From contig NZ_JALN02000005.1 of NCBI RefSeq assembly GCF_000559085.1, forward strand, positions 1-39,493: a stretch of DNA of 39,493 nt. Reading direction: 5' to 3'. Under the pieces are notes generated by a model. The model was not told where the DNA came from, made no database searches, and saw only the letters and a list, made by a program, of their open reading frames with translations. The position numbers and the translations under genes were made by a program. This DNA comes from Mycolicibacterium aromaticivorans JS19b1 = JCM 16368 (GTDB lineage Bacteria > Actinomycetota > Actinomycetes > Mycobacteriales > Mycobacteriaceae). The stretch's first letter is position 1; each line of letters starts with the position of its first letter. Positions 1 to 31,269 of this stretch are shown here, one piece after another.

Positions 1-858
1 TGCGGGACGTGAGCCGAAAAGTGTTGCGCAGCAGATGAATGATGCACGTCTGCACGATCGCCTGCGGCCACACATTGCCCACCACCTCGGGCAGTCCCTT
101 GAGCCCGTCGCAGACGACGAAGAAGGTGTCCTTGATGCCGCGGTTGCGTAGGTCGGTGAGCACGCTCATCCAGAACTTGGCGCCCTCCCCGCCGGTGCCG
201 GCCCACAAGCCGAGGATGTCGCGTTCCCCGGCCAGGGGACCCCGATGGCAGCGTAGAACGGCCGGTTGGCGACTTGGCCGTCGCGGACCTTGACCACGAT
301 CGCGTCGATGAAGATCGCGGCGTAGGTTTCATCCAGCGGTCGCACCGACCAGTCGTTCATCTCCTCAAGCACCTTGTCGGTGATGCGGCTGATCGTCTCT
401 TTGGATACCGACGCCCCGTAGATCTCGGCGAAGTGCGCCGAGATCTCACCGGTGGTCAAGCCCTTCGCGTACAGCGACAGCACGACCTCGTCCACGCCGT
501 TCAGGCGACGTTGGCGTTTCTTGACGATCTGAGGCTCGAAGGTCGATGCCCGATCGCGCGGCACGTCAAGTTCGACCGGGCCGGTGGTGTCGGTCAGCAC
601 CGTCTTGGTGCGGGTGCCGTTGCGGATGTTGCCCGACCCCGTCTCGGGCGGGTCGTGTTTCTCATAGCCGAGGTGCTCGGTCATCTCCTCATTGAGCGCG
701 GTCTCGAGGACCGTCTTGGTCAACTGCTTGAGCAGCCCGTCGGGCCCGGTCAGCGACAAGCCCTGCTCCTGGGCCAATCGGACCAGTTCGACCGCAGCCT
801 TCTGGCCTTCGGACTGCTCAGCCGCCTTCTTCTTCGCCACATCGTCCAGTGTCGTCAT
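1..858 (-). pseudogene. IS256-family transposase, partial and frameshifted (copy 1)
   Basis: N-terminal two thirds of the transposase that is complete at 28013-29293. The frame is lost near 237, where this copy lacks the T present in the two other copies of the gene. The end of the gene lies outside the window. The break sits at the extreme contig end and is probably a consensus error, so the real gene should be intact. Confidence 0.85.
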
Positions 859-927
859 CACGGCACCTTTCTCGCCGAGCATCACTCAGCGTGTCAGTGC
901 CGGAAACACCGTTAGATCCACAGTCCC
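1..927 (-). mobile_element. IS256-family element, 5' part (cut by window edge)
   Basis: This is the same insertion as the complete element at 27976-29362, seen in the first overlap copy and truncated by the start of the window. Its outer terminus ends at 927. The next 8 bases, CGCCCAAC (928-935), match the target duplication found on both sides of the complete copy. Confidence 0.9.
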
Positions 928-956
928 CGCCCAACTTGTGCAAATGTGCCAGACAT

Positions 957-978
957 CCTACTAGGCGATTGGAGTAGG
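957..978. other. Candidate oriT inverted repeat (copy 1)
   Basis: Perfect 6-bp arms CCTACT and AGTAGG with a 10-bp spacer, beside the IS insertion in the traA-rep intergenic region. It is the same site as 29392-29413, where the reasoning is given. Confidence 0.3.
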
Positions 979-1083
979 TATTCTGGTGGCAGTGAACCCC
1001 GGGGGGTGGCGAGTAAGTGATTTGATGGGTGGCGGCGCATGGGGCGGTGGAGATCGGTAGAAGCAGCGGTGTTGGACGAGCTG

Positions 1084-2393
1084 TTATGTCTGCTGGAGGA
1101 GCGTGAGGACACCGTCGGCCTCGACGCGTTGATGAGCTATCTCGTGGACGGCGTCAGCGTTCCCGCCTACCGACCACCGGGCCAGTTGTGGGACATCGCC
1201 ACCGTCGGGCCGGAGGCACCGCCCACTGTCCTCTGAGGTGTCGAGAGACGTCTCCGGAACGTCCCACGGTGGGTGGGCAGGACGAGCGCGCAGTATGCGG
1301 CGGATCTCGTGCTGGGCGGCGGCGATGCGTGCGTGTTGGGCGGCGGTCAACGGCACCGGGTGCGGCGTCTTCTGGTCGATGCGGTCGGCGGCGCAGCCGC
1401 CGACCTTTGTCGGGGGCTGCGCGGTGGTCCAGGTGAGTCGTCGGAGTCGGCTGGACAGGAACGCGCCGGGGTTGGTGATGTGGTCGGGCCAGGTCGCGCC
1501 GCGGGCGCGCATGTCGGCGTTCAGCGCGTCGGTGATGTCCTGTGCTGTCCATACCAGCGGGTCGATACCGGCTGCGGTGAGCGCATCGCAGATGGTGCCG
1601 ATGTGGACGCGGTCGAGGCCGTGGGCCGCAGCGACGAGGCCGCGGCGAGGCGTTGGGTGGCCAGTGGTCGCGGTGTGGTCCGCCGGGGCGGGCACACTGC
1701 ACGGGTTTTGAATCCCTTTCGTGAATCTTCATGAGCGGGCGCGCTGGCGCGCCCGCTTGGTGAGTTTCTCCCTACGGGAGTTAAAAGACTAAGACCGCCT
1801 GACGGCGGTAGGTGGAAATCCTGCACAGGGTCATGCACAGGACGAGGCGATGCCGGGCGGGCTTCGCGGCGCGGCACCAGGTGGTACACCGAGGGTCTAC
1901 GGCCGACGCTGGGGGTGCCCGGTGAGCCGTGTCCGCGTTGGGCCTCCACGGCCCATTGGGAGGCCCGTAGGACCCGCCAGGCGGCCGTAATGGTGCGTAC
2001 GTCACAGCCCACCCGGGCGGCGATGGTGGCACGGGTTACGGCGACGTGGCGGCCGGTGGCGTGATCGGCGTGCTCGGCCATCACCCCGGCGATCGACAAC
2101 AGCGTCGTCGCGGTGATCGACACCCGCTGCTCCGTGCACAGCTGGCCCAGGGCCGGCGACTGCGCCCAACGCTGGAGCCCGTCGAGCCAACTGCTGCGGC
2201 TGGTCCACATCGGCGCCCGCGGCCCACACGCGCCGGCGCGCTCGACCCAGCCGCGGCGGCGCTCATTGTTCAGCGCTCGGGCGACGTGCGGTGTGGGCGC
2301 GATAGCGGCGCCCAGCGGCGCCGGCCACGCACTGCTCACCCGAGCTGATCGGGCGGTGAGGAAGTCACGATTTGCGCACTGATTGCGCGCCAT
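1084..2393 (-). pseudogene. Rep-like HTH protein, copy 1 (frameshifted)
   Basis: First-copy version of the gene intact at 29520-30830. A G run near 1640 has two G here and three in copy 2, which splits the reading frame into an N-terminal HTH part and a C-terminal part. The break lies in the low-quality start of the contig and is most likely an assembly artefact. Confidence 0.8.
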
Positions 2394-2431
2394 TTCTGGA
2401 ACGTCAGACAGGCGTGCGCTACCGTGAGAGC

Positions 2432-2540
2432 TGTCGGTCAAGACAGTCCCTTCGGGGAAATGGGTACGGAAGACCCGGAACCGAGTTCGCAGCTCGGTTT
2501 GAACCTCCAGACGTGGCCCGCCTAAGGCGGGGCCTTCGTC
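2432..2540 (+). ncRNA. Structured RNA antisense to rep leader (copy 1)
   Basis: First-copy version of the candidate RNA at 30869-30978. The promoter is at 2397-2425. One C of the terminator stem is missing near 2518 relative to copy 2, which restores a perfect stem. Confidence 0.45.
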
Positions 2541-2627
2541 ATTCAGCGGGGGTTCCGCACACCAGCTATTCAGATGTCACGTTTGGCCTTACGGCTAAGT
2601 CCAGCCAGCAGCCGCGGCGCATACCGG

Positions 2628-2830
2628 TCACATCGCCAGCGGCAGCTCCTCCCTTGACTTGTGAAGTGCAAGGACAAGCTCGGGATGGCCGACGTGCTCG
2701 GCTAGCAGGTCTGCGACGTACTGCCCCATCGGGATACCGAGCTCGGCCGCCCTCTGTTTGACGATGTCGTAGACCACCCGAGGGGGCGCGTCATGATCTG
2801 GGCGCGGTCACCTTTATGCGGTTGAGCCAT
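2628..2830 (-). pseudogene. Small RHH-like plasmid protein, copy 1 (frameshifted)
   Basis: First-copy version of the 67-residue gene at 31066-31269. The G run at 2782-2786 has five G here and six in copy 2. The loss shifts the frame after the first third of the gene and is most likely a contig-end error. Confidence 0.6.
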
Positions 2831-2956
2831 GAGCAGGACTCTGCCAGCCGGAACAAGCTGTAACTGATAGCGACACGCGGTTTGTGTGGACCTGTGTGAC
2901 GCGTGTGGTTCACGCGGCCGGGTGGCCTCTCCCCTGCTGTGCGCCCGTCATCGCGG

Positions 2957-3160
2957 TCATGGTCGTCTGGTGAGAATCGCGATGGCGGCTTGAATGACGA
3001 CGCCCAGGATGGCGCCGATGACGCGTCCGGTATCTCCGATGGTGAGCTTGGATTCCGGGTTGCGGGCGTGGATGCGATCAGCGAGGACGCAGACCGTCAC
3101 GACGGTAGCCACGACTCCGAGGATGGCGACGATCCACACGGCCAGGTCAGTTCCGCTCAT
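2957..3160 (-). CDS. Small two-helix membrane protein (67 aa)
   Basis: Unrecognised small protein. From the ATG at 3160 it starts MSGTDLAVW and has a hydrophobic segment at about residues 5-26, a short charged linker containing KLTIGDTGR, and a second hydrophobic segment at about residues 47-62 ending in LTRRP. This predicts a hairpin of two membrane helices. A purine-rich GAG lies about 8 bases before the ATG. Longer upstream starts would add a basic, low-complexity leader that does not look coding. It lies between the RHH-like gene and parA and is identical in both overlap copies. A holin-like or toxin-like role is possible from size and topology alone, but nothing in the sequence proves it. 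Confidence 0.6.
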   Translation of the reverse strand: MSGTDLAVWIVAILGVVATVVTVCVLADRIHARNPESKLTIGDTGRVIGAILGVVIQAAIAILTRRP

Positions 3161-3544
3161 AGTTGATGCTCTTTCTCTGGTTGGTCGGGAAAGCGGCTCC
3201 CGGAGCGGGGCGTGAGAGCTCCGCTCTTTTCTTCTGGGCGGAACTGGGCTGTTTTCCACGGCACTGCCGCACCTTTCTCGTCGTGGCAACTCGGTCATTG
3301 GTGAAGTACCGGGGCGAGAGCTGTTTTCCGTCGTGCGGTGCGGCAGGTAGTTCTCTGGCACTCATCGGGAGGTATATGCCGGTGGGGTGCAGCGGCGGGG
3401 TCGCGAGGTACGGGCCATGAAAGAAGGGGTGCTTGGGGTGTAGCTTTCACGCCCTCTAATGACCTGCTGGAGGCCGATTTGCCGACAAGACGGGTGGTGA
3501 CAATTTGGTAACGACTCGCAGAAATACCGGGTCTACGTCGATAG
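3161..3544. other. Gene-poor region upstream of parA
   Basis: No confident gene. On the plus strand a strong GGGAGG stands just before ATG 3376, which opens a 14-codon frame whose stop overlaps (ATGA) the ATG of a second mini-ORF at 3417. That second frame is open for 31 residues only in copy 2 (31856-31951), because copy 1 lacks one G near 3436. The rest lacks recognisable signals apart from the repeats starting at 3545. Confidence 0.5.
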
Positions 3545-3600
3545 ACGTAACGACGTAATAGCGTGTTGACGTATATGCGTCATTGCGCTGTGACGTAAGG
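3545..3600. repeat. 8-bp phased RCGT repeat array 1 (putative centromere and parA operator)
   Basis: Seven consecutive octamers, each with an RCG(T) core in the same register: ACGTAACG, ACGTAATA, GCGTGTTG, ACGTATAT, GCGTCATT, GCGCTGTG, ACGTAAGG. The array ends 7 bases before the parA ATG and therefore covers its promoter region. Short helically phased repeats of this type are typical binding sites of ribbon-helix-helix partition proteins, which also repress their own operon. Confidence 0.7.
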
Positions 3601-3607
3601 TTTGGCC

Positions 3608-4183
3608 ATGCCTACGGTTTCTTTGGTCCACACCAAGGGCGGCGTTGCGAAGACGACGTCGGCGGTGTATCTCGCGACTGCTGCCCATCGCCGCGGTCGC
3701 GATGTCGTACTTGTTGATGCCGACCCGCAGGGCTCGGCGCTGGAATGGGCGGCGGCCGCCCAGGATGACCCCTTGCCGTTTCCGGTGGTGCCGGCACGCC
3801 GACCCCTGGACGTCAGTGGCCGCCAGGAGTTGACGATCGTGGACACTCCCCCGGGTACGGCGCAGGTTATTCAGGAAGCGATCGAGCTGGCCGATTTGGT
3901 CGTGGTGCCCACGGGGGCTTCACCGCTGGATGTCCGCCGGGTATGGCCGACTTTGGAGATCACCGCACACCGCCCCACGGCGGTGCTGCTGACCGGCGTC
4001 GATCTACGAACCCGACTAGCCGACGAGGTGAAGACCCTGCTGGAGGACGAGGGCGTGCCGGTGATCGAAACGCGGATTGTCCGCCGTGAGGGCATCCGCC
4101 GGGCGTTCGGGTCTACACCGAATCACCTGTACGGCTACGACGACGTGTTCGACGAGCTGATGGGGGCATTGGTTCATGTCTGA
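3608..4183 (+). CDS. parA: ParA-family partition ATPase
   Basis: Deviant Walker-type ATPase of the small ParA class (191 aa), expected to drive segregation of plasmid copies over the nucleoid. The P-loop KGGVAKTT is at residues 10-17 with the signature lysine, followed by VDADPQGSA (switch I, near residues 37-45) and VDTPPGT (Walker B region, near residue 79). There is no N-terminal HTH, so it probably does not bind a specific site; that role falls to the overlapping RHH gene downstream. ATG 3608 is preferred over the in-frame TTG 3602 because AAGG stands 7 bases upstream of it. It overlaps the next gene by 8 bases, implying coupled translation, and repeat array 1 sits directly upstream, implying autoregulation. 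Confidence 0.9.
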   Translation: MPTVSLVHTKGGVAKTTSAVYLATAAHRRGRDVVLVDADPQGSALEWAAAAQDDPLPFPVVPARRPLDVSGRQELTIVDTPPGTAQVIQEAIELADLVVVPTGASPLDVRRVWPTLEITAHRPTAVLLTGVDLRTRLADEVKTLLEDEGVPVIETRIVRREGIRRAFGSTPNHLYGYDDVFDELMGALVHV

Positions 4184-4403
4184 CTTGACTTCGAAGATGG
4201 CCGCACGAGTGAAGACAGAACCCGCCAAGCGGGCGGCTGAGGCGTTCCGCTCCCCCACTGACGATATGCAGCGCGCCACCGTTTATCTGCCACGCGCGAC
4301 GGTGCGCGGACTGAAGCAGGCTGCACTGGACCGGGACACGAGCATGAGCAAAATCCTCACCGACCTGGCCGATCGGTGGTTAGCCCAGAACGCAAAGACG
4401 TAA
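4176..4403 (+). CDS. Ribbon-helix-helix partition protein (ParB/Omega-type partner of ParA)
   Basis: A 75-residue protein whose C-terminal half has the RHH pattern: a short strand RATVYLP at about residues 33-39, then a helix RGLKQAALDRD, a turn, and a helix SKILTDLADRWL. The basic N-terminal tail (KMAARVKTEPAKRAAE) is typical of partners that stimulate ParA ATPases. It starts inside the end of parA (ATGTCTGA overlap). The likely targets are the four 8-bp repeat arrays, one of which begins within the last codons of this gene. The family is inferred from the fold pattern and position, as sequences of such proteins diverge strongly. Confidence 0.75.
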   Translation: MSDLTSKMAARVKTEPAKRAAEAFRSPTDDMQRATVYLPRATVRGLKQAALDRDTSMSKILTDLADRWLAQNAKT

Positions 4404-4437
4404 GAACGTAAATGCGTCATTACGTCCTTACGTTAAC
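4398..4437. repeat. 8-bp phased RCGT repeat array 2
   Basis: Five octamers in register (ACGTAAGA, ACGTAAAT, GCGTCATT, ACGTCCTT, ACGTTAAC) that together form an imperfect palindrome. The array overlaps the last codons and stop of the RHH gene and lies upstream of the NYN gene. Confidence 0.7.
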
Positions 4438-4505
4438 AACTTCATGCCCCCAGCCGGGATCGTCCTGGCGGGCGATTGCGTGCCCGCCAGTTAGCGTCTG
4501 TTTCT

Positions 4506-5237
4506 ATGCGAGTGGGTGTGTACATCGATGGTTTCAACCTGTACTACGGCGGCAAGTTCATCTGCGGATCTGGCACGGCCGGCTGGCGATGGCTTGACCT
4601 GCGCGCCTTGGCGACGCGGCTGATGGCCAACCAATCGGCTTGGAGCGGTGCGACCGTTGAACGCATCGTGTACTGCACTGCGCGTATCTCAGGAGCTGAC
4701 AACCGCGTCGGCAGTCGAGAACAGGACGCCTACCTCGCCGCTTTGACCCGCGCCGCTGTCGTGGATCACATCGAAGAGGGCAACTACGTCAACCGCGTCA
4801 CCTCCGCGCCCCTGGCCACCAAAGACCGACGCGGGCGTCCGGTTCTCACCACCCCAGCTTGGCCGGTAACCATTAAAGATGGTGCCGGGCAGAATGCCCC
4901 CGACGCGCGGTTCTTCGTTTCTGTTGCCCGGCGCGAGGAGAAGGGCTCCGATGTAAATGTGGCCGCCCACCTGCTGCTGGACATCCTCGAAAACCGCATC
5001 GACGCCGCGCTGGTGATCAGCAACGACAGCGACCTGAAATTTCCTGTCCAGGCCGCACGTGACCGCGTCCCGGTCGGCACCATCAACCCGACCAAAAACC
5101 AGACCGCAGGAAAGCTGCGGGGGCGACCGTCGGACGGGGTAGGCAACCACTGGTGGTACCAGCTGGTCGCCGCAGATTTCCAGTCCTGCCAACTCCCGGA
5201 CCCCGCTGGCGGGGTGTCTAAGCCGCCGCCCTGGTGA
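4506..5237 (+). CDS. NYN-domain (PIN-like) nuclease
   Basis: A 243-residue protein of the NYN/PIN-like superfamily, which cuts RNA with a metal-dependent acidic centre. The first motif, [13 protein letters not shown], begins at about residue 3 and carries the first conserved aspartate and asparagine. A second acidic cluster, [12 protein letters not shown], lies near residue 145, and the third, VISNDSDL, near residue 170. Those give the D...D...D pattern of active members. ATG 4506 is chosen because the family motif starts immediately after it; an in-frame TTG at 4476 would add ten unrelated residues, and no good Shine-Dalgarno is seen for either. It follows the partition pair, is flanked by arrays 2 and 3, and is closed by a strong terminator. 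A role in plasmid RNA turnover or stability is inference. Confidence 0.85.
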
Positions 5238-5300
5238 CCTGCCCGACAGGGGAGGGGAATTGCGTGGACGCAACGCGCGTTGCATAATTGCGGAATACCA

Positions 5301-5329
5301 CCCGTCCCCGGCAGGGGACGGGTTTTTTC
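5301..5329 (+). terminator. Rho-independent terminator after the NYN gene
   Basis: Stem CCCGTCCCC / GGGGACGGG with a GCA loop, followed by TTTTTT. A closely related terminator, including about 20 bases of preceding sequence (TAATTGCG...AATACCA), recurs at 6476-6502. Confidence 0.85.
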
Positions 5330-5336
5330 TTGCCCA

Positions 5337-5384
5337 ACGTAAGGACGTAATGACGTATATGCGTCGTTACGTCCTTACGTCATG
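5337..5384. repeat. 8-bp phased RCGT repeat array 3
   Basis: Six octamers (ACGTAAGG, ACGTAATG, ACGTATAT, GCGTCGTT, ACGTCCTT, ACGTCATG) forming a nearly perfect 44-bp palindrome between the convergent NYN gene and the following minus-strand gene, whose stop codon it includes. Confidence 0.75.
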
Positions 5385-5943
5385 ATTGCGTATTGAAGCG
5401 CTTTTCCCAGGCTGGGTAGCTGCCGAGGCTACGAAGAAGGGGAGCGGTGAGTGCTGCCACGACCTGGTCGGGGTTTTCGTCGAGGTCGGCTAGTGAGGCT
5501 TCGGTTGCTCTCTCGTAGATGTTTTCTGTGTAGACGGGTCCTTTGTCGCCGAAGTTCTGGTCGGCGATGATCCATGACGTCGAGTCGCGTAGGCCATTCA
5601 TGGAGAGGGCGAACCGCCAACTTCCGGTGTAGCCCCAGCGGTGCGACACTGCAGCGGCCAGGCGGGCAAGCAAGCTGACGTGCCCGATGATCAGTCTTTC
5701 GAAGACCAGCGTGAGGTCGGGTGGGGGAGGGGACACGTTGCTGAATGAGCGGGTGGTCACGGCGCGCTCCGATGCCAACACGAGTCGGCCGGACTCATAG
5801 AGCACGATCTCGGCGGCGGAGTCCTTGCCGGCGAAGCGTTGCCCGTCGTACATGCCGGTGGTCAACGCGAGGCCAGACGAGCATGTCTTCTCGCGCGCCG
5901 ACCGGGTCGGCCAGCACGACGAGCAGAGGAGCAGCGTCACCAA
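5380..5943 (-). CDS. Conserved protein, C-terminal part (possible frameshift with 5795-6148)
   Basis: Conserved-looking actinobacterial sequence of unknown function. The part from about residue 25 on (GLALTTGMYDGQRF... to ...GSYPAWEKRF) has the composition of a folded domain, with a long helix LIIGHVSLLARLAAAVSHRWGY. My recollection is that such sequences form the C-terminus of AlbA_2-type DNA-binding proteins, but I cannot confirm it. The first 24 residues look like read-through of another frame, because the overlapping frame at 5795-6148 carries a credible N-terminus. The two frames would join by a +1 shift around 5860-5890, identical in both overlap copies. Either this is one broken gene or the two genes overlap. 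Confidence 0.55.
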   Translation of the reverse strand: MVTLLLCSSCWPTRSAREKTCSSGLALTTGMYDGQRFAGKDSAAEIVLYESGRLVLASERAVTTRSFSNVSPPPPDLTLVFERLIIGHVSLLARLAAAVSHRWGYTGSWRFALSMNGLRDSTSWIIADQNFGDKGPVYTENIYERATEASLADLDENPDQVVAALTAPLLRSLGSYPAWEKRFNTQS

Positions 5944-6148
5944 CGAGTTCGGTACGGATCGAGCGGGCTTCAGCTCGTAGATCGCGGCGGTCCGCCAGGC
6001 GCCGGTCTAGGAGGCGTACGACCTCGGGGTTGGGCACCCCCATCGGGGCCAGGCAACCCCTCACCGTCGTCGGCCGTCTCGTCCGTGCTCGTCGTGATTG
6101 CCACCCGGTGTGGTCCTCCTCGTGCAAGCGGTCCATACCAAGACTCAT
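5795..6148 (-). CDS. Probable N-terminal part of the same gene (frame-shifted relative to 5380-5943)
   Basis: From ATG 6148 this frame gives MSLGMDRLHEEDH and then a charged helical region with PEVVRLLDRRLADRRDL and LLVVLADPVGAREDM. After about residue 90 it turns into arginine-rich sequence that looks like out-of-frame translation, just where the other frame becomes protein-like. An internal ATG at 6043 (MGVPNPEV) is an alternative start. The N-terminal region is coding-like, but its independence as a gene is doubtful. Confidence 0.4.
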   Translation of the reverse strand: MSLGMDRLHEEDHTGWQSRRARTRRPTTVRGCLAPMGVPNPEVVRLLDRRLADRRDLRAEARSIRTELVGDAAPLLVVLADPVGAREDMLVWPRVDHRHVRRATLRRQGLRRRDRAL

Positions 6149-6183
6149 ATGCAGCGCAACTCGGTAATTCCCCAACACCCTAA

Positions 6184-6199
6184 TGTGATTTAGATCACG
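6184..6199. promoter_or_regulatory. CRP/FNR-family-like operator
   Basis: TGTGATTTAGATCACG fits the TGTGA-N6-TCAC(A) dyad of CRP-type regulators, including the mycobacterial CRP. It lies between two divergent genes (starts at 6148 minus and 6282 plus), where such a site could control either. Confidence 0.45.
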
Positions 6200-6281
6200 C
6201 ATTTGACCTGGGGAAACGTGCCTGCGGCCTGCATAAGAGCTTACAGAAACAACCGATTCGCGAACCCCTTTAGGAGGTGTC

Positions 6282-6440
6282 ATGATCACCCTGATCGCGC
6301 TCACGGTGACGATGTTCTTCATCGCGGCCACCGCCGTCACCATCGCGCTGCGCTGGCCAGCCACCATCACCTGGGTCCACGTCACCGTGGCCGTGGTCGC
6401 TCCCATCGCCGCCGAAACGATCAACCTGTTCGTCCGCTGA
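6282..6440 (+). CDS. Small two-helix membrane protein (52 aa)
   Basis: Unrecognised small protein. An excellent Shine-Dalgarno (AGGAGG, 5-6 bases before ATG 6282) fixes the start. The product begins MITLIALTVTMFF and has two hydrophobic stretches, about residues 2-23 and 29-49, separated by RWPATITW, with a short NLFVR end. This predicts two membrane helices and almost no soluble part. The gene follows the CRP-like site and ends 35 bases before a terminator. The same small two-helix layout is seen at 2957-3160, though the sequences are not alike. Function is unknown. Confidence 0.7.
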   Translation: MITLIALTVTMFFIAATAVTIALRWPATITWVHVTVAVVAPIAAETINLFVR

Positions 6441-6475
6441 ACTGGCCAAACAGACGGCATAATTGCGCAATACCA

Positions 6476-6502
6476 CCCGTCCCCGGCAGGGGCGGGTTTT
6501 TC
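6476..6502 (+). terminator. Rho-independent terminator after the 52-aa membrane protein
   Basis: Stem CCCGTCCCC / GGGGCGGG followed by TTTTT. It is a near copy of the terminator at 5301-5329. Confidence 0.8.
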
Positions 6503-6542
6503 TTTGCCTTCATGGGCCGCCCCCAGCTCACCGCGGCCTGTG

Positions 6543-6582
6543 GCGTCGTGACGTAATCACGTACTTACGTTATTACGTCACG
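6543..6582. repeat. 8-bp phased RCGT repeat array 4
   Basis: Five octamers (GCGTCGTG, ACGTAATC, ACGTACTT, ACGTTATT, ACGTCACG) forming a 40-bp imperfect palindrome downstream of the terminator. It repeats the terminator-then-array order found at 5301-5384. Confidence 0.7.
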
Positions 6583-6895
6583 ACGCACCACTTCATCCAA
6601 CCTGGGATGCAACGACAGATCAGAAGGTTAGGGGTCGGGCCGTGTCCCGATAACGAAGGTTTTCGGGACGCCGAAGAGCCACCGTCCCGCCTTAGCCTTG
6701 GACCATCCTCAGACTGTCAATCGGACGGTTCCTGGTCGCGTGATCTTTCGTGGCACGCCCCATGCTGCCTCTAGAGCCGTACGCGACCTCTCTCAACGCG
6801 TCCCTCAAGTCAAGAATGGTCCTGAACAAAGGGCCGCAACCGTGGTCACAAGACACCCGATGAATAAAGGTGAGCTGTCTCGGTCGAGAACACGC
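6583..6895. other. Intergenic region between backbone and metal-transport operon
   Basis: No credible gene. It holds a 7-bp perfect inverted repeat GTCCCGA / TCGGGAC at 6646-6671 that could be a weak terminator for either side. Nothing else is recognised. Confidence 0.4.
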
Positions 6896-7054
6896 TTAGC
6901 GGCCCCGTCGGCCCCACAGGATCAGCAGTGTCACCGTCGCGATCACCGCGATCGTCACTAGCAGGATCGTGGAGCCGATGATCACCGCGTGGTGGCTGTA
7001 CTGCGGTAGCGGGGTCGATGCCACGGCCAGCGAGCCACCGAGTGCGGTGCTCAC
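6896..7054 (-). CDS. Small single-helix membrane protein (52 aa) downstream of the transporter
   Basis: Unrecognised small protein. From GTG 7054 it reads VSTALGGSLAVAS, has a short polar stretch with YSHHAV, and then a strong hydrophobic helix at about residues 24-46 (IIGSTILLVTIAVIATVTLL), ending in the positively charged tail WGRRGR. That predicts one transmembrane helix with a cytoplasmic C-terminus. A second in-frame GTG at 7072 is a possible start. It begins 40 bases after the transporter stop on the same strand, so it is probably the last gene of the operon. A small accessory subunit of the transporter is a reasonable guess only. Confidence 0.6.
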   Translation of the reverse strand: MSTALGGSLAVASTPLPQYSHHAVIIGSTILLVTIAVIATVTLLILWGRRGR

Positions 7055-7094
7055 ATCCGCCGGTCCCTGCACCGGCGCGCGGTGCGGCGCATGG

Positions 7095-8840
7095 TCATCC
7101 GCCGCCGAGTTGGACGGCTTTGACGATGAGCAGGATCGCGCCGACGACCAGGTAGCCGCGTAGGGCGAGCATGCCGAGTTTGGTTCCGGCCGACCAGGTG
7201 ACGGGTTCCAGCAAGGCCAGGGGCGGCATGCGCCACGACATCTTCTCAGGCCCGTCGATCACGGTCACTGGGGCCGGGGCCCTGGGGTTTCGGCGTTGCA
7301 ACCACTTCAGCACCCCGACCGCGAGGATGGCCAGGATGACGATGCCTGCGGCGAGGTACGCGGTGACGGTCACGACGTCCAAGTCGGGAAATAGGGTGGT
7401 GGCCATCAGGATCCCCGACAGCAACAGCAGCACCGCGACGATGAACACCGCGACGACGTTGAGCCAGCGCCGGTTCACCCACGGGCCCAACACCTCCCGG
7501 TCGTTGCACAACAACAGCAGGAACACACTCGCACTCGGCAGCAGCAGACCCGCCAGTGCCTGCACCGCAGTGGTGATCAGACCCAACGGCGCACCCGGGA
7601 TCAGCACGATCCCAGCGGCGGCGGCGACCATCGCGATGTAGGAGACGTAGAACGGTTTGGCGTCGGCAAACCCGCGGTGCAGGGAGTGTTTCAGGCCGAA
7701 CACGTCGCCGAAGGCGTAGCTGGTGGCCAAGGTCACCGCTGCCGCACCCACGATGGAGGCATCCAGCAGCACGATCGCGAAGACCGGACCCAGCACACTG
7801 CTATGCGCCGACAGCAGACGGGCGATGTCTCCGGCGTCGCCGAAGTTGCCCTCACTGCCGGTGGAGCGGGCCGCCCAGTCCGCGGTCATCACCAACGCAG
7901 CCGCACCGATGACCACCACGAACGCGCCTATGGTGGTGTCGGCGCGCTCGTAACTGATGAAGCGCGGGGTGATGCGCTTGTCGACGATGTTGGACTGCTG
8001 AAAGAACAGCTGCCACGGCGCAACGGTGGTGCCCACGATCGCAATGATCAGCAGCACCGCATCCGAGCTGAGCCCACCCTTGATGCCCGGCACGACGAAG
8101 GCCTGTGCGGCCGCCCCCCACTGGGGGTGCGACAGCAGCAGCATCGGGATCTGCAGCAGGGTGATCGCGATGAACACGAACATGGCGCGTTCCCAGCGAC
8201 GGAAACTGCCCGAGGCCATGATCGCCACCAACGCCACCGCGGCCGTCGGGACGACGATGTACTTCGAGACACCGAAATAGGCGGCGGCCAACGAGACGCC
8301 GATGAACTCGGTGACGATGGTCAGGAAGTTCAGCAGGAACAGATCCCCCACGGAGAACCAGCCCCACCCGCGGCCGAAGCGTTCGTTGATCAGCCGGGCA
8401 TGGCCCACCCCGGTGACCGCTCCGAGGCGGACCACCATCTCCTGGTTGACGATCAGCACCGGGATCAGCAACAGCAGCACCCAGAGAAGGCTGTAGCCGT
8501 AGTTTTGGCCGGCCTGGGCGTAGGTGGCGACACCGCCGGCGTCGTTGTCGCCGACCATCACGATGATCCCGGGCCCGAGGATCGCCAACAGTGTCAGCAG
8601 CCGGGTCTTGAGCGTGCGGCCCTGATCGCTGTCGCCGACGCTGACCCGGCCGAACGCGCCTTCGATGTCACCGAGATGGGCGCTGTCCAACACCGCCGAC
8701 GCCTGAGGCGCTGCAGGGGCTGGAGTCGGCTCGGGTCCCGGCGCGCTGGTGGACGCGGCCTGTGGGGTGACATCAGCAGCGGGAGCCTGATCCGGTGCCG
8801 TGGGGTCGGTGGTGCCTACCGGCGGGTGGGAGTCAGCCAT
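7095..8840 (-). CDS. NRAMP-family divalent metal transporter, NRMT-like (probably Mg2+)
   Basis: A 581-residue membrane transporter with a disordered proline/alanine-rich N-terminus (1-50), a short linker, and about 11-12 membrane helices from residue 82. The NRAMP fold is clear: GPG at 89-91, then VGDNDAGGVAT at helix 1, and VGTTVAPWQLFFQQS at helix 6 (269-283). In classical Mn2+/Fe2+ NRAMPs these metal sites read DPGN and MPH. Here they read DAGG (100-103) and APW (274-276), so the Asn and the metal-selecting Met are replaced while Asp100 is kept. As I recall, this pattern marks the NRAMP-related magnesium transporters. The start ATG overlaps the stop of the MgtE_N/CBS gene by 8 bases (ATGGCTGA), implying coupling. 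Mg2+ uptake is the favoured role, Mn2+ the alternative. Confidence 0.85.
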   Translation of the reverse strand: MADSHPPVGTTDPTAPDQAPAADVTPQAASTSAPGPEPTPAPAAPQASAVLDSAHLGDIEGAFGRVSVGDSDQGRTLKTRLLTLLAILGPGIIVMVGDNDAGGVATYAQAGQNYGYSLLWVLLLLIPVLIVNQEMVVRLGAVTGVGHARLINERFGRGWGWFSVGDLFLLNFLTIVTEFIGVSLAAAYFGVSKYIVVPTAAVALVAIMASGSFRRWERAMFVFIAITLLQIPMLLLSHPQWGAAAQAFVVPGIKGGLSSDAVLLIIAIVGTTVAPWQLFFQQSNIVDKRITPRFISYERADTTIGAFVVVIGAAALVMTADWAARSTGSEGNFGDAGDIARLLSAHSSVLGPVFAIVLLDASIVGAAAVTLATSYAFGDVFGLKHSLHRGFADAKPFYVSYIAMVAAAAGIVLIPGAPLGLITTAVQALAGLLLPSASVFLLLLCNDREVLGPWVNRRWLNVVAVFIVAVLLLLSGILMATTLFPDLDVVTVTAYLAAGIVILAILAVGVLKWLQRRNPRAPAPVTVIDGPEKMSWRMPPLALLEPVTWSAGTKLGMLALRGYLVVGAILLIVKAVQLGGG

Positions 8841-10152
8841 GACCGGCCCCGTCCTGGGCACCGACGACGTCGCGGATCGGGCGCGGCGCGGGTTCGCGGC
8901 GCCGCCAGTCCTCGGGGATGGTGGCCTCCAGGACGTCATCGAAGGTCACCACACCGACCACCCGGTCGCCCTCGTCGACGACGGGGATGGCGACCAGGTT
9001 GTAGTCGGCCATCAGCAGGGCGACGTCGGTCAGGTCGGCTTCCGGGGTGACTCGGATCGGGTCGACGTCGAGCAGCTCGGTGATCGGGGTGTGGGGGTCG
9101 GATTGCAGCAGCCGGATCACCGAGACCACCCCGACCAGTTCGCCGGCCTCGTTGACCCCGTGCATCTTGAGCAACGCCTCGGGTTGCATCGCCCGGGCGG
9201 CAGCGATGATCGAAAGAGCTTGCGCGGCAGTGGCATCCGTCGAACACGACGCCACGTCGACGCTCATCAACCCGCCCGCGGTCGAGGGGTTGAACCCCAT
9301 CAGCGTGATGACCTTGGTGCGCTGCCCCGCCGGCAGCAGCTCCAGCACCCGGCGACGGCGGGACTGGCGCAGATCGGCGATCGCGTCCGCCGCGTCGTCG
9401 GCCCGCATCCGGGCCAATACCCCGGCGACCTCGGTATCAGTCATGTCGCCCAGGATCTTGGTGGCCTTGTCGGGGTCGAGTTCCTCGAAGACGTCGGCCT
9501 CCAACTCCGGGTCGGAGTGGAGGCGGTCGAGGATTTCTCCACCCTCGTCTTTGTCGGCGTCCTCCAGCAGGTCCGCGATCTGGGCCGGCTTCAGCTTCGA
9601 CATCCGCCCGCCCGCGCGCTCCAACACGCTCGCCGTGTGCCCGATGAGCGGTTCGAAGGACTTCCAGTCCCGGCTGGCATGCCCCCCACCGGATTTGATC
9701 AACCCGAACAGCCGCGCCGGCCGGCGGGTATCCAGCCGTGCCAGCACCCAGCCCGCCCCGGTGTCCTCGAGCTCGATGTCGTAGGCATGCACCAACTCCG
9801 CGGCCGCGACGTCGATGAGCCGGTGATCGAGGACGTCGGTGCGCAACAGAACCTCGCCGTCACGGCGTTCGAACTCGCGCAGATCCACCTTGTTCTTCGA
9901 CAGATCGACGTGTTCCTGGGTCAGGTCGGTGATCTGCCCGGACGACACGTACACCCGACGGCCGCCGATCCCTACCACCAGGCCGGTGACCGGCGGATAC
10001 CCCTCGGCACCGCGCAGGCTGACGATGACGTCCTCGACCCGGCCCACCGCGTCACCGGCCTTCGCGACGACCGGACGACCCAGGAGATCGGACAGATGGA
10101 TCACCGGCCGTGACGCCGTGGGCGCTCCACCATCAGGCGGGACTTCATGCAT
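8833..10152 (-). CDS. PRC-barrel / MgtE N-terminal / CBS-pair regulatory protein
   Basis: A soluble 439-residue protein with the cytoplasmic sensor parts of MgtE-type Mg2+ channels but no membrane domain. A PRC-barrel-like region at about residues 15-75 (VIHLSDLLGR...GRVEDVIVSL) is followed by an MgtE_N helical domain near 195-300 (IADLLEDAD, LDPDKATKIL, MRADDAADAI) and two CBS motifs near 310-430 (MSVDVAS..., VDPIRVTPEADL..., AIPVVDEGDRVVGVV). ATG 10152 has GAAGGAAGAG just upstream. It overlaps the NRAMP-like gene, so the two probably form one transporter whose gating responds to cytoplasmic Mg2+, as in MgtE. Chromosomal actinobacterial proteins that join these domains in one chain support this, from memory. 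Confidence 0.85.
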   Translation of the reverse strand: MHEVPPDGGAPTASRPVIHLSDLLGRPVVAKAGDAVGRVEDVIVSLRGAEGYPPVTGLVVGIGGRRVYVSSGQITDLTQEHVDLSKNKVDLREFERRDGEVLLRTDVLDHRLIDVAAAELVHAYDIELEDTGAGWVLARLDTRRPARLFGLIKSGGGHASRDWKSFEPLIGHTASVLERAGGRMSKLKPAQIADLLEDADKDEGGEILDRLHSDPELEADVFEELDPDKATKILGDMTDTEVAGVLARMRADDAADAIADLRQSRRRRVLELLPAGQRTKVITLMGFNPSTAGGLMSVDVASCSTDATAAQALSIIAAARAMQPEALLKMHGVNEAGELVGVVSVIRLLQSDPHTPITELLDVDPIRVTPEADLTDVALLMADYNLVAIPVVDEGDRVVGVVTFDDVLEATIPEDWRRREPAPRPIRDVVGAQDGAGHG

Positions 10153-10308
10153 AGTGACTCTTCCTTCTCGATGAGACGATCGCGGCCGTGCCCGAATGTC
10201 GCGGTTCCATATGCGCACGACCACGTGAACACTGGGCGACACCGATCTCGACCACCGTCGGTAGACACCCAAACCTGGGACATGTGGATGGATCGTCCAC
10301 AGAGGTCG

Positions 10309-11256
10309 TTAGTCACCGGGCCCTCGATCACGACCCTTACGCCGGGCCGCGTACCGAGGGCTGTAGCCAGTGCGAGATCCCGTAGGGGTCGCGCATCTGG
10401 CTACCACGTAGACGGCAAGGAGAAGTGCTGGCCCGATCACGCTGGCCAGTAACCCCAACCCGGCGAGGTGCCCGATCAGCGCGATCAGGCCAATGACGAT
10501 GTTCGCCAGCGCGGCGACCTCCATGATCAGCACGGCGATCACGACCCGGCGCCGCCGCCTCACGTCGTCAACGGTGGTCTGGCGCTGCTGATCGAGGTCA
10601 GTTTCATCGGCGACTTCCGCGCGAAGCAACTCAAGCAGGGCGACCGGGACGTCGGTCGCCACGCTGACATCCCCGACGTCGTCGCCGCGGCGCAGCATCA
10701 GCGCCGCCAACCGGACCCGCACGCTGGCGTGGCGATCGTCATCGGCCTCCGGCAGTGGGGCCGTTGATCGCTTGGGAGTCATTCCCAGGTCACCGAGGAA
10801 CGCCGGGTTCGATCCGGCGGACGCCGCCCGCGGGGGAGTGCGCCGCGTGCGGGACCGTCGTTTCTTGGGCATGTCCTCAGTATGACCAGGTCGGACGGGT
10901 CGCAACATCGAGCCATTCCTGTCAATCTCCTGTCGCCACAGGTGCCTATCGGCGGGTACACCTGCTAGACGCGCGGCGGGCCGCCCACCACATCGTCCGG
11001 AGGTCCTGGGTTGGGAATTTGGACGGGTAGGGGTGTCGGCCATGTCGGCCATCACCTCGACCAACGCTTGCGGGACGCGGGTTGTGGTGGCGACCACCGC
11101 CGGGTCACCACCGTGCCGCAGCATCGCCCGGGCGGTGAGCATCCGGATGGTGGCGGTCAGCGTTCCGTCGGCCCGCTGGCCTGACACCCCTTGCGGCGCA
11201 GTTATTTTGGCGGGTTTATCGATCGCGTCGTGCGTCTGATCGTCGTGGGAGTCCAT
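10309..11256 (-). CDS. Unknown protein with internal repeat and C-terminal membrane helices
   Basis: Not recognised. ATG 11256 has AGGAGG 7 bases upstream. Two similar stretches of about 40 residues occur at 36-74 (MLTARAMLRHGGDPAVV...TRVPQALVEVM) and 178-218 (RLAALMLRRGDDVGDVS...TDVPVALLELL), each helix-turn-helix-like. The C-terminal part has a basic stretch (DDVRRRRRV) and two hydrophobic helices near 235-290. Residues 80-128 look like translated spacer, and Met129 (10872) has its own GAGG, so this may really be two genes (about 80 and 187 residues) that happen to be in frame. The two overlap copies disagree in sequence near 10978. It precedes the MgtE_N gene in the same direction. Confidence 0.55.
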   Translation of the reverse strand: MDSHDDQTHDAIDKPAKITAPQGVSGQRADGTLTATIRMLTARAMLRHGGDPAVVATTTRVPQALVEVMADMADTPTRPNSQPRTSGRCGGRPAARLAGVPADRHLWRQEIDRNGSMLRPVRPGHTEDMPKKRRSRTRRTPPRAASAGSNPAFLGDLGMTPKRSTAPLPEADDDRHASVRVRLAALMLRRGDDVGDVSVATDVPVALLELLRAEVADETDLDQQRQTTVDDVRRRRRVVIAVLIMEVAALANIVIGLIALIGHLAGLGLLASVIGPALLLAVYVVARCATPTGSRTGYSPRYAARRKGRDRGPGD

Positions 11257-23483: not shown

Positions 23484-24870
23484 GGGACTGTGGATCTAAC
23501 GGTGTTTCCGGCACTGACACGCTGAGTGATGCTCGGCGAGAAAGGTGCCGTGATGACGACACTGGACGATGTGGCGAAGAAGAAGGCGGCTGAGCAGTCC
23601 GAAGGCCAGAAGGCTGCGGTCGAACTGGTCCGATTGGCCCAGGAGCAGGGCTTGTCGCTGACCGGGCCCGACGGGCTGCTCAAGCAGTTGACCAAGACGG
23701 TCCTCGAGACCGCGCTCAATGAGGAGATGACCGAGCACCTCGGCTATGAGAAACACGACCCGCCCGAGACGGGGTCGGGCAACATCCGCAACGGCACCCG
23801 CACCAAGACGGTGCTGACCGACACCACCGGCCCGGTCGAACTTGACGTGCCGCGCGATCGGGCATCGACCTTCGAGCCTCAGATCGTCAAGAAACGCCAA
23901 CGTCGCCTGAACGGCGTGGACGAGGTCGTGCTGTCGCTGTACGCGAAGGGCTTGACCACCGGTGAGATCTCGGCGCACTTCGCCGAGATCTACGGGGCGT
24001 CGGTATCCAAAGAGACGATCAGCCGCATCACCGACAAGGTGCTTGAGGAGATGAACGACTGGTCGGTGCGACCGCTGGATGAAACCTACGCCGCGATCTT
24101 CATCGACGCGATCGTGGTCAAGGTCCGCGACGGCCAAGTCGCCAACCGGCCGTTCTACGCTGCCATCGGGGTCACCCTGGCCGGGGAACGCGACATCCTC
24201 GGCTTGTGGGCCGGCACCGGCGGGGAGGGCGCCAAGTTCTGGATGAGCGTGCTCACCGACCTACGCAACCGCGGCATCAAGGACACCTTCTTCGTCGTCT
24301 GCGACGGGCTCAAGGGACTGCCCGAGGTGGTGGGCAATGTGTGGCCGCAGGCGATCGTGCAGACGTGCATCATTCATCTGCTGCGCAACACTTTTCGGCT
24401 CACGTCCCGCAAGTACTGGGACGAGATCAAGGGCGACGTCAAGCCGATCTACACTGCGGTCAACGCGACCGCGGCTCGGGCGGCGTTCGACGAGCTGGCC
24501 GAGAAATGGGGGCAGCGCTACCCGGCAGTGATCCGGCTCTGGGACAACGCCTGGGCGGAGTTCATTCCGTTCCTGGACTACGACGTGGAGATCCGGCGAG
24601 TGATCTGCTCGACGAACGCGATCGAGTCGCTCAACGCCCGCTACCGCCGCGCGATCAAGGCCCGCGGACACTTCCCCTCCGAGCAGGCGGCGCTCAAGTG
24701 CCTGTATCTGGTGACCCGATCACTGGACCCGACCGGTGTCGGCAGGGCACGATGGACGATGCGGTGGAAACCTGCCCTCAATGCGTTCGCGATCACCTTC
24801 GCCGACCGATTCCCGGCAGCCGAAACCTACTGATGAAAAACGCCGGAAACACCGTTAGCGAGATAGACCC
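23484..24870 (+). mobile_element. IS256-family element, complete copy 1 (1387 bp)
   Basis: Terminal inverted repeats share CTAACGGTGTTTCCGGC and begin GGGACTGTGG (left) and, reverse-complemented, GGGTCTATCT (right). An exact 8-bp target duplication, CAATAGGT, flanks it at 23476-23483 and 24871-24878. It encodes one transposase. A second, identical-looking copy lies inverted at 27976-29362. Confidence 0.93.
23553..24833 (+). CDS. IS256-family transposase
   Basis: A DDE transposase of 426 residues, the usual length for IS256/Mutator-type elements. The catalytic residues are visible as Asp185 (AIFIDAIVVK), Asp251 (FFVVCDGLKGL) and Glu358 (STNAIESLNARYRRA), with the C-x-x-H motif QTCIIHLLRN between them. 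The N-terminal part carries the DNA-binding region. ATG 23553 is preferred over ATG 23526 because AAAGG stands 8 bases before it. The protein is identical to that of the inverted copy, so both insertions are recent. Confidence 0.93.
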   Translation: MTTLDDVAKKKAAEQSEGQKAAVELVRLAQEQGLSLTGPDGLLKQLTKTVLETALNEEMTEHLGYEKHDPPETGSGNIRNGTRTKTVLTDTTGPVELDVPRDRASTFEPQIVKKRQRRLNGVDEVVLSLYAKGLTTGEISAHFAEIYGASVSKETISRITDKVLEEMNDWSVRPLDETYAAIFIDAIVVKVRDGQVANRPFYAAIGVTLAGERDILGLWAGTGGEGAKFWMSVLTDLRNRGIKDTFFVVCDGLKGLPEVVGNVWPQAIVQTCIIHLLRNTFRLTSRKYWDEIKGDVKPIYTAVNATAARAAFDELAEKWGQRYPAVIRLWDNAWAEFIPFLDYDVEIRRVICSTNAIESLNARYRRAIKARGHFPSEQAALKCLYLVTRSLDPTGVGRARWTMRWKPALNAFAITFADRFPAAETY

Positions 24871-27975: not shown

Positions 27976-29362
27976 GGGTCTATCTCGCTAACGGTGTTTC
28001 CGGCGTTTTTCATCAGTAGGTTTCGGCTGCCGGGAATCGGTCGGCGAAGGTGATCGCGAACGCATTGAGGGCAGGTTTCCACCGCATCGTCCATCGTGCC
28101 CTGCCGACACCGGTCGGGTCCAGTGATCGGGTCACCAGATACAGGCACTTGAGCGCCGCCTGCTCGGAGGGGAAGTGTCCGCGGGCCTTGATCGCGCGGC
28201 GGTAGCGGGCGTTGAGCGACTCGATCGCGTTCGTCGAGCAGATCACTCGCCGGATCTCCACGTCGTAGTCCAGGAACGGAATGAACTCCGCCCAGGCGTT
28301 GTCCCAGAGCCGGATCACTGCCGGGTAGCGCTGCCCCCATTTCTCGGCCAGCTCGTCGAACGCCGCCCGAGCCGCGGTCGCGTTGACCGCAGTGTAGATC
28401 GGCTTGACGTCGCCCTTGATCTCGTCCCAGTACTTGCGGGACGTGAGCCGAAAAGTGTTGCGCAGCAGATGAATGATGCACGTCTGCACGATCGCCTGCG
28501 GCCACACATTGCCCACCACCTCGGGCAGTCCCTTGAGCCCGTCGCAGACGACGAAGAAGGTGTCCTTGATGCCGCGGTTGCGTAGGTCGGTGAGCACGCT
28601 CATCCAGAACTTGGCGCCCTCCCCGCCGGTGCCGGCCCACAAGCCGAGGATGTCGCGTTCCCCGGCCAGGGTGACCCCGATGGCAGCGTAGAACGGCCGG
28701 TTGGCGACTTGGCCGTCGCGGACCTTGACCACGATCGCGTCGATGAAGATCGCGGCGTAGGTTTCATCCAGCGGTCGCACCGACCAGTCGTTCATCTCCT
28801 CAAGCACCTTGTCGGTGATGCGGCTGATCGTCTCTTTGGATACCGACGCCCCGTAGATCTCGGCGAAGTGCGCCGAGATCTCACCGGTGGTCAAGCCCTT
28901 CGCGTACAGCGACAGCACGACCTCGTCCACGCCGTTCAGGCGACGTTGGCGTTTCTTGACGATCTGAGGCTCGAAGGTCGATGCCCGATCGCGCGGCACG
29001 TCAAGTTCGACCGGGCCGGTGGTGTCGGTCAGCACCGTCTTGGTGCGGGTGCCGTTGCGGATGTTGCCCGACCCCGTCTCGGGCGGGTCGTGTTTCTCAT
29101 AGCCGAGGTGCTCGGTCATCTCCTCATTGAGCGCGGTCTCGAGGACCGTCTTGGTCAACTGCTTGAGCAGCCCGTCGGGCCCGGTCAGCGACAAGCCCTG
29201 CTCCTGGGCCAATCGGACCAGTTCGACCGCAGCCTTCTGGCCTTCGGACTGCTCAGCCGCCTTCTTCTTCGCCACATCGTCCAGTGTCGTCATCACGGCA
29301 CCTTTCTCGCCGAGCATCACTCAGCGTGTCAGTGCCGGAAACACCGTTAGATCCACAGTCCC
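27976..29362 (-). mobile_element. IS256-family element, complete copy 2 (1387 bp, inverted)
   Basis: Same length and termini as 23484-24870, in opposite orientation. It is flanked by its own exact 8-bp target duplication CGCCCAAC (27968-27975 and 29363-29370), so it arrived by a separate transposition. It sits between traA and rep, separating traA from its natural upstream region. The outer part is seen again at 1-927. Confidence 0.93.
28013..29293 (-). CDS. IS256-family transposase (inverted copy)
   Basis: Identical in protein sequence to the 426-residue transposase at 23553-24833, with the same catalytic Asp185, Asp251 and Glu358. The start is ATG 29293 with AAAGG upstream. This is the intact version of the partial gene at 1-858. 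Confidence 0.93.
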   Translation of the reverse strand: MTTLDDVAKKKAAEQSEGQKAAVELVRLAQEQGLSLTGPDGLLKQLTKTVLETALNEEMTEHLGYEKHDPPETGSGNIRNGTRTKTVLTDTTGPVELDVPRDRASTFEPQIVKKRQRRLNGVDEVVLSLYAKGLTTGEISAHFAEIYGASVSKETISRITDKVLEEMNDWSVRPLDETYAAIFIDAIVVKVRDGQVANRPFYAAIGVTLAGERDILGLWAGTGGEGAKFWMSVLTDLRNRGIKDTFFVVCDGLKGLPEVVGNVWPQAIVQTCIIHLLRNTFRLTSRKYWDEIKGDVKPIYTAVNATAARAAFDELAEKWGQRYPAVIRLWDNAWAEFIPFLDYDVEIRRVICSTNAIESLNARYRRAIKARGHFPSEQAALKCLYLVTRSLDPTGVGRARWTMRWKPALNAFAITFADRFPAAETY

Positions 29363-29391
29363 CGCCCAACTTGTGCAAATGTGCCAGACAT

Positions 29392-29413
29392 CCTACTAGG
29401 CGATTGGAGTAGG
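29392..29413. other. Candidate oriT inverted repeat
   Basis: Perfect arms CCTACT / AGTAGG with a 10-base spacer, followed by TATTCTGG. It lies in the traA-rep intergenic region, where MobF plasmids often carry oriT, now on the far side of the IS insertion from traA. Position and the inverted repeat are the only support. Confidence 0.3.
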
Positions 29414-29519
29414 TATTCTGGTGGCAGTGAACCCCCGGGGGGTGGCGAGTAAGTGATTTGATGGGTGGCGGCGCATGGGGCGGTGGAGATCGGTAGAAGC
29501 AGCGGTGTTGGACGAGCTG

Positions 29520-30830: not shown

Positions 30831-30868
30831 TTCTGGAACGTCAGACAGGCGTGCGCTACCGTGAGAGC

Positions 30869-30978
30869 TGTCGGTCAAGACAGTCCCTTCGGGGAAATGG
30901 GTACGGAAGACCCGGAACCGAGTTCGCAGCTCGGTTTGAACCTCCAGACGTGGCCCCGCCTAAGGCGGGGCCTTCGTC
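30869..30978 (+). ncRNA. Structured RNA antisense to the rep leader (candidate copy-number RNA)
   Basis: A promoter with -35 TGGAAC (30834-30839), a 17-base spacer and -10 TACCGT (30857-30862) points away from rep. The predicted transcript has hairpins CTGTC/GACAG, TCCC-TTCG-GGGA (a UUCG tetraloop), AACCGAG/CTCGGTT with a 7-base loop, and a terminator GGCCCCGCC-TAA-GGCGGGGCC (30952-30972). It has no protein-like frame. Because rep starts at 30830 on the other strand, this RNA would be complementary to the rep 5' leader, the arrangement of countertranscribed copy-number RNAs. In copy 1 (2432-2540) the terminator lacks one base. Confidence 0.55.
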
Positions 30979-31065
30979 ATTCAGCGGGGGTTCCGCACAC
31001 CAGCTATTCAGATGTCACGTTTGGCCTTACGGCTAAGTCCAGCCAGCAGCCGCGGCGCATACCGG

Positions 31066-31269
31066 TCACATCGCCAGCGGCAGCTCCTCCCTTGACTTGT
31101 GAAGTGCAAGGACAAGCTCGGGATGGCCGACGTGCTCGGCTAGCAGGTCTGCGACGTACTGCCCCATCGGGATACCGAGCTCGGCCGCCCTCTGTTTGAC
31201 GATGTCGTAGACCACCCGAGGGGGGCGCGTCATGATCTGGGCGCGGTCACCTTTATGCGGTTGAGCCAT
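31066..31269 (-). CDS. Small RHH-like plasmid protein (67 aa)
   Basis: A 67-residue protein beginning MAQPHKGDRAQIMTRPP, with helices VVYDIVKQRAAELGIP and MGQYVADLLAEHVGHPEL and a polar end. The strand-helix-helix order and size recall small ribbon-helix-helix or antitoxin-like proteins widespread in mycobacterial plasmids and genomes. No toxin partner is adjacent. It lies upstream of rep in the same direction, with the antisense RNA in between, so it may join rep control. No clear Shine-Dalgarno is seen. This is the intact version of 2628-2830. Confidence 0.6.
   Translation of the reverse strand: MAQPHKGDRAQIMTRPPRVVYDIVKQRAAELGIPMGQYVADLLAEHVGHPELVLALHKSREELPLAM

Follow-up and report, generated by a model that had tools for sequence, protein, structure and literature searches.

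Four arrays of contiguous 8-bp repeats built on the core RCGT lie in and around a small parA gene and its ribbon-helix-helix (RHH) partner gene in Mycolicibacterium aromaticivorans JS19b1 = JCM 16368 (assembly GCF_000559085.1). The window analysed is the whole of contig NZ_JALN02000005.1, 39,493 bp, referred to below as C5. Judged from sequence comparison, we consider it very likely that a ParA-RHH partition locus lies here, on a circular plasmid, and that the arrays are its parS sites, with array 1 probably serving as an operator as well. Partition loci of this kind are known from mycobacteriophages; what is new here is the variant in a plasmid clade, with RCGT as its core, a third and a fourth array and a polarity that converges. 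The features that make up the locus are as follows.

3545 to 3600, array 1: seven octamers with cores ACGT ACGT GCGT ACGT GCGT GCGC ACGT, ending 7 bp before the parA ATG; parS-L-like, and probably an operator too
3608 to 4183, plus strand: parA, a small ParA-type ATPase of 191 amino acids with the motif KGGVAKTT
4176 to 4403, plus strand: parB-like RHH gene, 75 amino acids, overlapping parA by 8 bp
4390 to 4437, array 2: six octamers across the last codons and stop of the RHH gene; parS-R-like
5337 to 5384, array 3: six octamers, spacers nearly palindromic
6543 to 6590, array 4: six octamers, borderline palindromic

Runs of RCGT that keep the 8-bp register exactly start at positions 3545, 4398, 5337 and 6543, and comprise 5, 5, 6 and 5 strict consecutive cores, respectively. 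A preliminary description of this DNA had placed four arrays in 8-bp register here, and both its coordinates and the register hold. Its further statement that each of the five to seven octamers carries ACGT or GCGT applies to arrays 2 to 4 as they were delimited there; it fails in array 1, where the sixth core, GCGC, breaks the pattern and leaves five consecutive strict cores. Array 2 has five strict cores at 4398-4437 and six octamers, from 4390, when an ACGC within the RHH frame is counted, and array 4 has five at 6543-6582 and six cores, to 6586, with ACGC counted. At periods of 6, 7, 9, 10, 11 or 12 the contig has no RCGT run that reaches three cores, and the five-core pattern was found on none of the five other contigs of the genome, only on C5. 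With 288 RCGT words in 28,434 bp, chance predicts 3e-6 runs of at least five cores, against four observed. In 300 plasmids simulated with a third-order Markov model the longest run was three and a run of five occurred in none, and on this expectation and these simulations a chance origin was excluded.

The positions of the arrays relative to the genes were compared in the study plasmid and 22 named genome loci, some of them near-identical, which yield 20 distinct array-2 stretches; the counts permit one gap and ACGC. All 23 loci have array 1 ending just before parA, 22 of them have array 2 across the RHH stop, and array 3 is in place in 17 of the 22 loci with sufficient downstream sequence. 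The cores are more conserved than the spacers, with a mean pairwise identity in array 2 of 0.88 for cores versus 0.60 for spacers (17 in-register rows of the 20 distinct stretches, leaving out L137, L139 and L140).

The arrays follow the RHH gene closely. Thirty of the 396 genomes in a sample of the genus contain the five-core RCGT pattern, and a division by eye assigns 22 of these to a varied-spacer class and 8 to near-fixed octamers. In all 22 varied-spacer genomes the array shares its contig with an RHH gene whose identity to that of the study plasmid is 79% or higher. Varied-spacer arrays occur in 22 of the 25 genomes with the RHH gene versus none of the 371 without it (Fisher p 3e-33), and the three remaining carriers (L073, L074 and L075) have shorter or broken arrays in the same places. 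Repeats in the absence of the par pair, which the preliminary description had named as the contrary outcome, are thus missing from these 371 genomes. In two more genomes the RHH gene is matched weakly, at 41% and 35% identity, and RCGT runs are absent. The reversed control pattern was found in 9 of 396 genomes, none among the 22. The eight near-fixed-octamer genomes, in none of which the RHH gene was found, were set aside as simple tandem repeats.

A tblastn search of a plasmid collection with the RHH protein returned 32 records, of which 23 are mycobacterial plasmids at 80-97% identity and 9 are below 60%. A four-core RCGT pattern is present in 6 of the 8 mycobacterial records with an RHH protein at least 80% identical, and in 7 of the 13 whole plasmid records examined. 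The matches in plasmid records lie at most about 2 kb from the RHH gene, with three exceptions (pMARIA, pGP01 and pCGR2). The pMARIA array, about 8 kb from the RHH gene, resembles array 4 (83.5% over 200 bp), a homologue of which was recognised only in this plasmid, the sole record compared. On pGP01 a second array pair stands next to a second, broken RHH copy, and the pCGR2 match is an unrelated 16-bp repeat. Short repeats near plasmid maintenance genes are often iterons, and the arrays might accordingly be bound by a plasmid Rep protein as part of a replication origin. We find this highly improbable, since the array positions track parA and the RHH stop, the arrays accompany the RHH gene across plasmids of differing gene content, and the period of 8 returns, with other cores, in the other ParA-partner loci described below.

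The description of arrays 2 to 4 as palindromic overall needs caution, because the core ACGT is itself a palindrome. When only the spacers are compared with shuffles, the description stands for array 3 (symmetry 0.90, p 0.017), is borderline for array 4 (0.80, p 0.05) and is lost for array 2 (0.62, p 0.45); the value for array 1 is likewise not significant (0.60, p 0.15). Pooled over the distinct arrays of the 23 loci, spacer palindromy is significant for type 3 (p 0.0013, 10 arrays) and non-significant for type 2 (p 0.064, 12 arrays) and type 1 (p 0.24, 17 arrays). In a separate pooled test of polarity, AANN spacers precede NNTT spacers in types 1, 2 and 3 (p 0.002, 0.0002 and 0.0008, respectively). 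Spacer polarity in array types 1 to 3 thus converges.

The ParA protein matches Pfam CbiA (7.6e-14) and phrog_164, a ParA-like family (1.1e-36), as well as NCBIfam ParA_partition, where its value of 1.9e-37 is under that family's cut-off. The RHH protein matches phrog_2639, named Arc-like repressor, at 2.1e-16. In a fold search with its model, the top entries are mostly RHH proteins (StnY, ParG, yiiF, CopG and Arc), none of them significant (best E 0.26).

As judged from these sequences, the nearest known system is the parABS locus of RedRock, a cluster A mycobacteriophage, rather than Omega of plasmid pSM19035, which the preliminary description had proposed. RedRock ParA is 52.9% identical to the ParA of the study plasmid over 191 amino acids. 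Its ParB also belongs to phrog_2639 and shares 46% identity with the RHH protein over 67 aligned columns, and in both systems the start of parB overlaps the end of parA by 8 bp. The RedRock arrays, made of TCGANNNN octamers, reach the parA start and span the parB stop, with lag-8 self-identity z values of 9.1 and 8.2. Thus, in RedRock as in the study plasmid, each octamer joins a palindromic core of 4 bp to a spacer of equal length, and the arrays occupy two corresponding sites at parAB, whereas the core is TCGA in the phage and RCGT in the plasmid. Most loci of the plasmid clade that were compared also have a third array, and at least two plasmids a fourth. Unlike the phage system, the carriers here are plasmids typed as MobF-mobilizable or non-mobilizable. 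According to the available excerpts of PMC7157519, RedRock ParB recognises 8-bp parS-L and parS-R arrays, the RedRock parABS cassette stabilises shuttle plasmids, and the phages Miko and Rachaly carry a further parS locus.

By analogy with this system, RHH dimers (ParB) would bind successive RCGT cores, one dimer per 8 bp, and so coat each array. The arrays would jointly form a dispersed centromere that nucleoid-bound ParA could pull or position. ParB bound at array 1, 7 bp upstream of parA, probably represses parAB as well, while arrays 2 and 3, together with array 4 in plasmids that have it, may chiefly supply extra ParB-loading sites. We infer binding of one RHH dimer per octamer, repression and segregation in this sense. 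The preliminary description had suggested that the arrays could serve as centromere and promoter operators at once, and this was partly borne out. Homology to RedRock and strict co-occurrence with the RHH gene lend good support to a centromere and operator bound by the 75-residue protein; the double role appears plausible for array 1 and possible for array 2. The elements that surround these arrays are as follows.

4506 to 5237, plus strand: NYN-domain gene, Pfam NYN 8.7e-07 (read from the second codon), between arrays 2 and 3
5300 to 5330, plus strand: terminator-like hairpin before array 3, stem 5300-5323, T-rich tail
6475 to 6505, plus strand: terminator-like hairpin before array 4, stem 6475-6497, T-rich tail

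Since arrays 3 and 4 stand behind terminator-like hairpins with no obvious promoter, a double role is unsupported for both. A search for sigma-70-like promoters in 3300-6700 found none, with 0.6 expected, so that the operator role is based on position and analogy. A 53-bp terminator module at 5282-5334 and 6457-6508, 92% identical between its two copies, precedes arrays 3 and 4, as if a unit of terminator and array had been duplicated. Array 3 is flanked on one side by the NYN gene and its hairpin, and on the other by the 3' end of an open reading frame on the minus strand (5380-5943) that matched no known family.

The same arrangement bears on a reading of the arrays as operators or copy-number control elements only, in which the RHH protein would be the autorepressor of the locus and the arrays would have no direct segregation role. 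The location of array 1 directly before parA, the 68 bp that separate the end of array 2 from the NYN start codon, and the repressor name of phrog_2639 are in keeping with it. So, as a possible parallel, is a vector of the Corynebacterium pCG1 family in which loss of parAB lowered copy number (PMC13088423, excerpt). Yet array 3, behind a hairpin and, in the study plasmid, between two convergent 3' ends, is kept in most loci, and the homologous RedRock cassette stabilises plasmids (PMC7157519, excerpt); we regard control without segregation as unlikely.

The NYN gene could also suggest a toxin-antitoxin control region, with an RHH antitoxin, an NYN nuclease and RHH-bound operators, given that RHH antitoxins with nuclease toxins are common and that the NYN gene comes after the RHH gene. 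However, a tblastn search found an NYN homologue between arrays 2 and 3 in only 7 of the 22 named loci (L137 has one elsewhere), and the arrays persist; moreover, the RHH frame shares 8 bp with parA. We attach almost no weight to this explanation. The NYN gene is not a constant part of the locus, and array 3, which is kept even at loci for which the search detected no NYN homologue, is therefore independent of that gene.

Several observations weigh against the interpretation of the arrays as parS sites. The RHH protein reaches Pfam RHH_1 at 0.0041, under the cut-off, and its AlphaFold model, of modest quality (single chain, pLDDT 67.6), has the two RHH helices and no beta strand. Array 2 is missing at one of the 23 loci (L140), array 3 is not at its usual place in 5 of 22, and two mycobacterial plasmid records, those of L020 and L026, with RHH proteins 80% identical, have in the corresponding positions broken arrays only, and no strict four-core run in the entire record. 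The spacer polarity of the plasmid arrays converges, whereas direct repeats are reported for RedRock (PMC7157519, excerpt). The same excerpts state that the maintenance effect of phage parABS is confounded with copy-number changes, and that the Miko cassette did not fully promote maintenance. Finally, a scan of IMG/VR for the five-core pattern gave at least 120 viral stretches, and among the matches listed 33 of 36 varied-spacer stretches have no ParA-like Walker motif within 2.5 kb in the DNA covered. These viral arrays without a nearby ParA-like motif make the pattern alone insufficient to define the system; the spacers of the varied-spacer stretches differ from those of the plasmid.

A sequence search for RHH relatives in viral contigs yielded no locus. 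The viral contig IMGVR_UViG_2974529886_000001 (L175 2163-3141; L145 6333) carries ACGT octamers upstream of parA and others that span the stop of the partner gene, together with a third array; its ParA is 53% identical, and the partner gene has no match to the RHH protein of the study plasmid. On a metagenomic contig (L215 1207-1330), ACGTAATG/ACGTAAAG octamers form a long direct repeat that is nearly perfect. It is close in letters, yet no par gene is among the open reading frames listed around the repeat. We found no description of these plasmid arrays, and no experiment on this plasmid, in literature titles and abstracts from searches that took in few of the subscription journals.

Omega-like heptads were rejected as a description of the repeats, the period being 8 and no RCGT run reaching three cores at 7. 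The likeness between the study plasmid and pSM19035 was assessed by the features described. Both have an RHH ParB, a small ParA and short contiguous repeats grouped in several arrays between genes (four arrays over 3 kb here), whereas the pSM19035 units are contiguous 7-bp WATCACW heptads. The repeats of pSM19035 stand in direct or inverted order, a further likeness; its sites, unlike those of the study plasmid, overlap promoters of separately transcribed genes (PMC9499535 and PMC5016525, excerpts). The delta-omega system of pSM19035 has six parS sites, so that separate arrays can make one centromere (PMC9499535; type Ib section of PMC5016525; both in excerpt). The spread of arrays between genes, which had been presented as a departure from Omega, is therefore already found there. 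ParA activation in pSM19035 requires at least four contiguous repeats (PMC9499535, excerpt), and every array of the study plasmid has at least five strict cores.

Among solved chains, the best match of ParA is ParF of TP228 (2.1e-14), closely followed by another ParA, 5u1g (2.3e-14). TP228 ParG ranks third in the RHH fold search (E 0.77), and the Pfam ParG family (PF09274) was not matched by the RHH protein, which hit only RHH_1, weakly. The core of TP228 parH is ACTC, other than RCGT. Contiguous tandem 8-bp met boxes with an ACGT centre are bound by RHH dimers of MetJ, a metabolic repressor that uses S-adenosylmethionine and has no ParA. Like the operator role considered for array 1, ParG of TP228 also represses its own operon; parH lies upstream of the genes, a point of difference (PMC7308502 and PMC5389482, excerpts).

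C5 is one of six contigs in a 6.30 Mb genome. Its bases 28435-39493 duplicate 1-11061 at 99.84% identity, and we therefore interpret the contig as a circular plasmid of about 28.4 kb that was assembled 1.39 times, which leaves 11 kb redundant. Arrays 1 to 4 recur letter-identical at 31985, 32830, 33777 and 34982, a recurrence overlooked in the preliminary description.

31985 to 35029: second assembled copy of arrays 1 to 4, an assembly redundancy and not a second locus

An exact inverted repeat of 1,387 bp, probably an insertion sequence copy, is located at 23484-24870 and 27976-29362, near the contig overlap. Contig C6 of the same genome looks similarly redundant, with RHH matches 23,960 bp apart.

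The 8-bp period extends to other par loci. Self-identity at lags 5-26 was determined in 21 loci with related ParA, covering 42 regions (before parA and round the partner stop). The loci were chosen by similarity of their ParA or RHH proteins; apart from the study plasmid, nine had been viewed by eye beforehand and 11 fetched later had not. Several partners are annotated as hypothetical, and none is annotated in L114 and L115; for L089 and L103, the match frame served to place the stop. The mean z over the 42 regions is 2.68 at lag 8, 1.79 at 16 and 1.31 at 24, and at most 0.71 at other lags. With an alternative null, the lag-8 z exceeds 2 in 27 of 42 regions versus 3 of 210 control windows; because the loci are related, the p value is not one for independent samples. 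With the first null, z at lag 8 is not clearly above 2 on both sides in L025, L096 and L108, and on one side in L023, L079, L103, L112, L114, L115, L116 and L117.

The cores within this frame differ, being of CATAC types in Corynebacterium glutamicum and Tsukamurella, ATCCAT on C6 and TAGC in L090. With the C6 locus (L105, 875-1920), the genome that holds C5 has a further par locus. The ParA of this locus is 54% identical to that of C5, its partner is a 147-residue protein with an RHH-like C-terminal part, and its arrays have the ATCCAT core in the 8-bp frame. Within this genome, ATCCATNNATCCAT is restricted to C6 and five-core RCGT runs to C5. On a plasmid of the cyanobacterium Allocoleopsis, AATGTYTA octamers in the 8-bp frame lie at the stop of a Pfam ParG gene (L119, 1985-2045), which suggests that the frame may extend beyond actinobacteria. 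A simple code linking core to residue was rejected: R33, T35 and Y37, which by analogy with Arc we take to be the DNA-contacting beta-strand positions, are nearly constant while the cores differ, and in RedRock and EagleEye two of these positions are different. Row L079 was left out of alignment A1.

We tentatively propose, as a possibility that we hold at somewhat less than even, that a fixed 8-bp frame, with one array before parA and one at the parB stop, carries a core word of 4-6 bp that is swapped between lineages and acts as a segregation address. Plasmids that are related but differ in core word, the RCGT plasmid and C6 (ATCCAT) among them, could then share a cell, and the mycobacterial clade would write its address in three or four arrays with converging arms. 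If the arrays are parS sites, the centromere of a plasmid family with its RHH gene in 25 of the 396 sampled genomes of the genus would be readable from sequence, and plasmid and phage partition systems would be linked. It would then also become testable whether the core word sets plasmid incompatibility under a fixed 8-bp frame, and the par loci of C5 and C6, with different words in one strain, would be a natural test pair.

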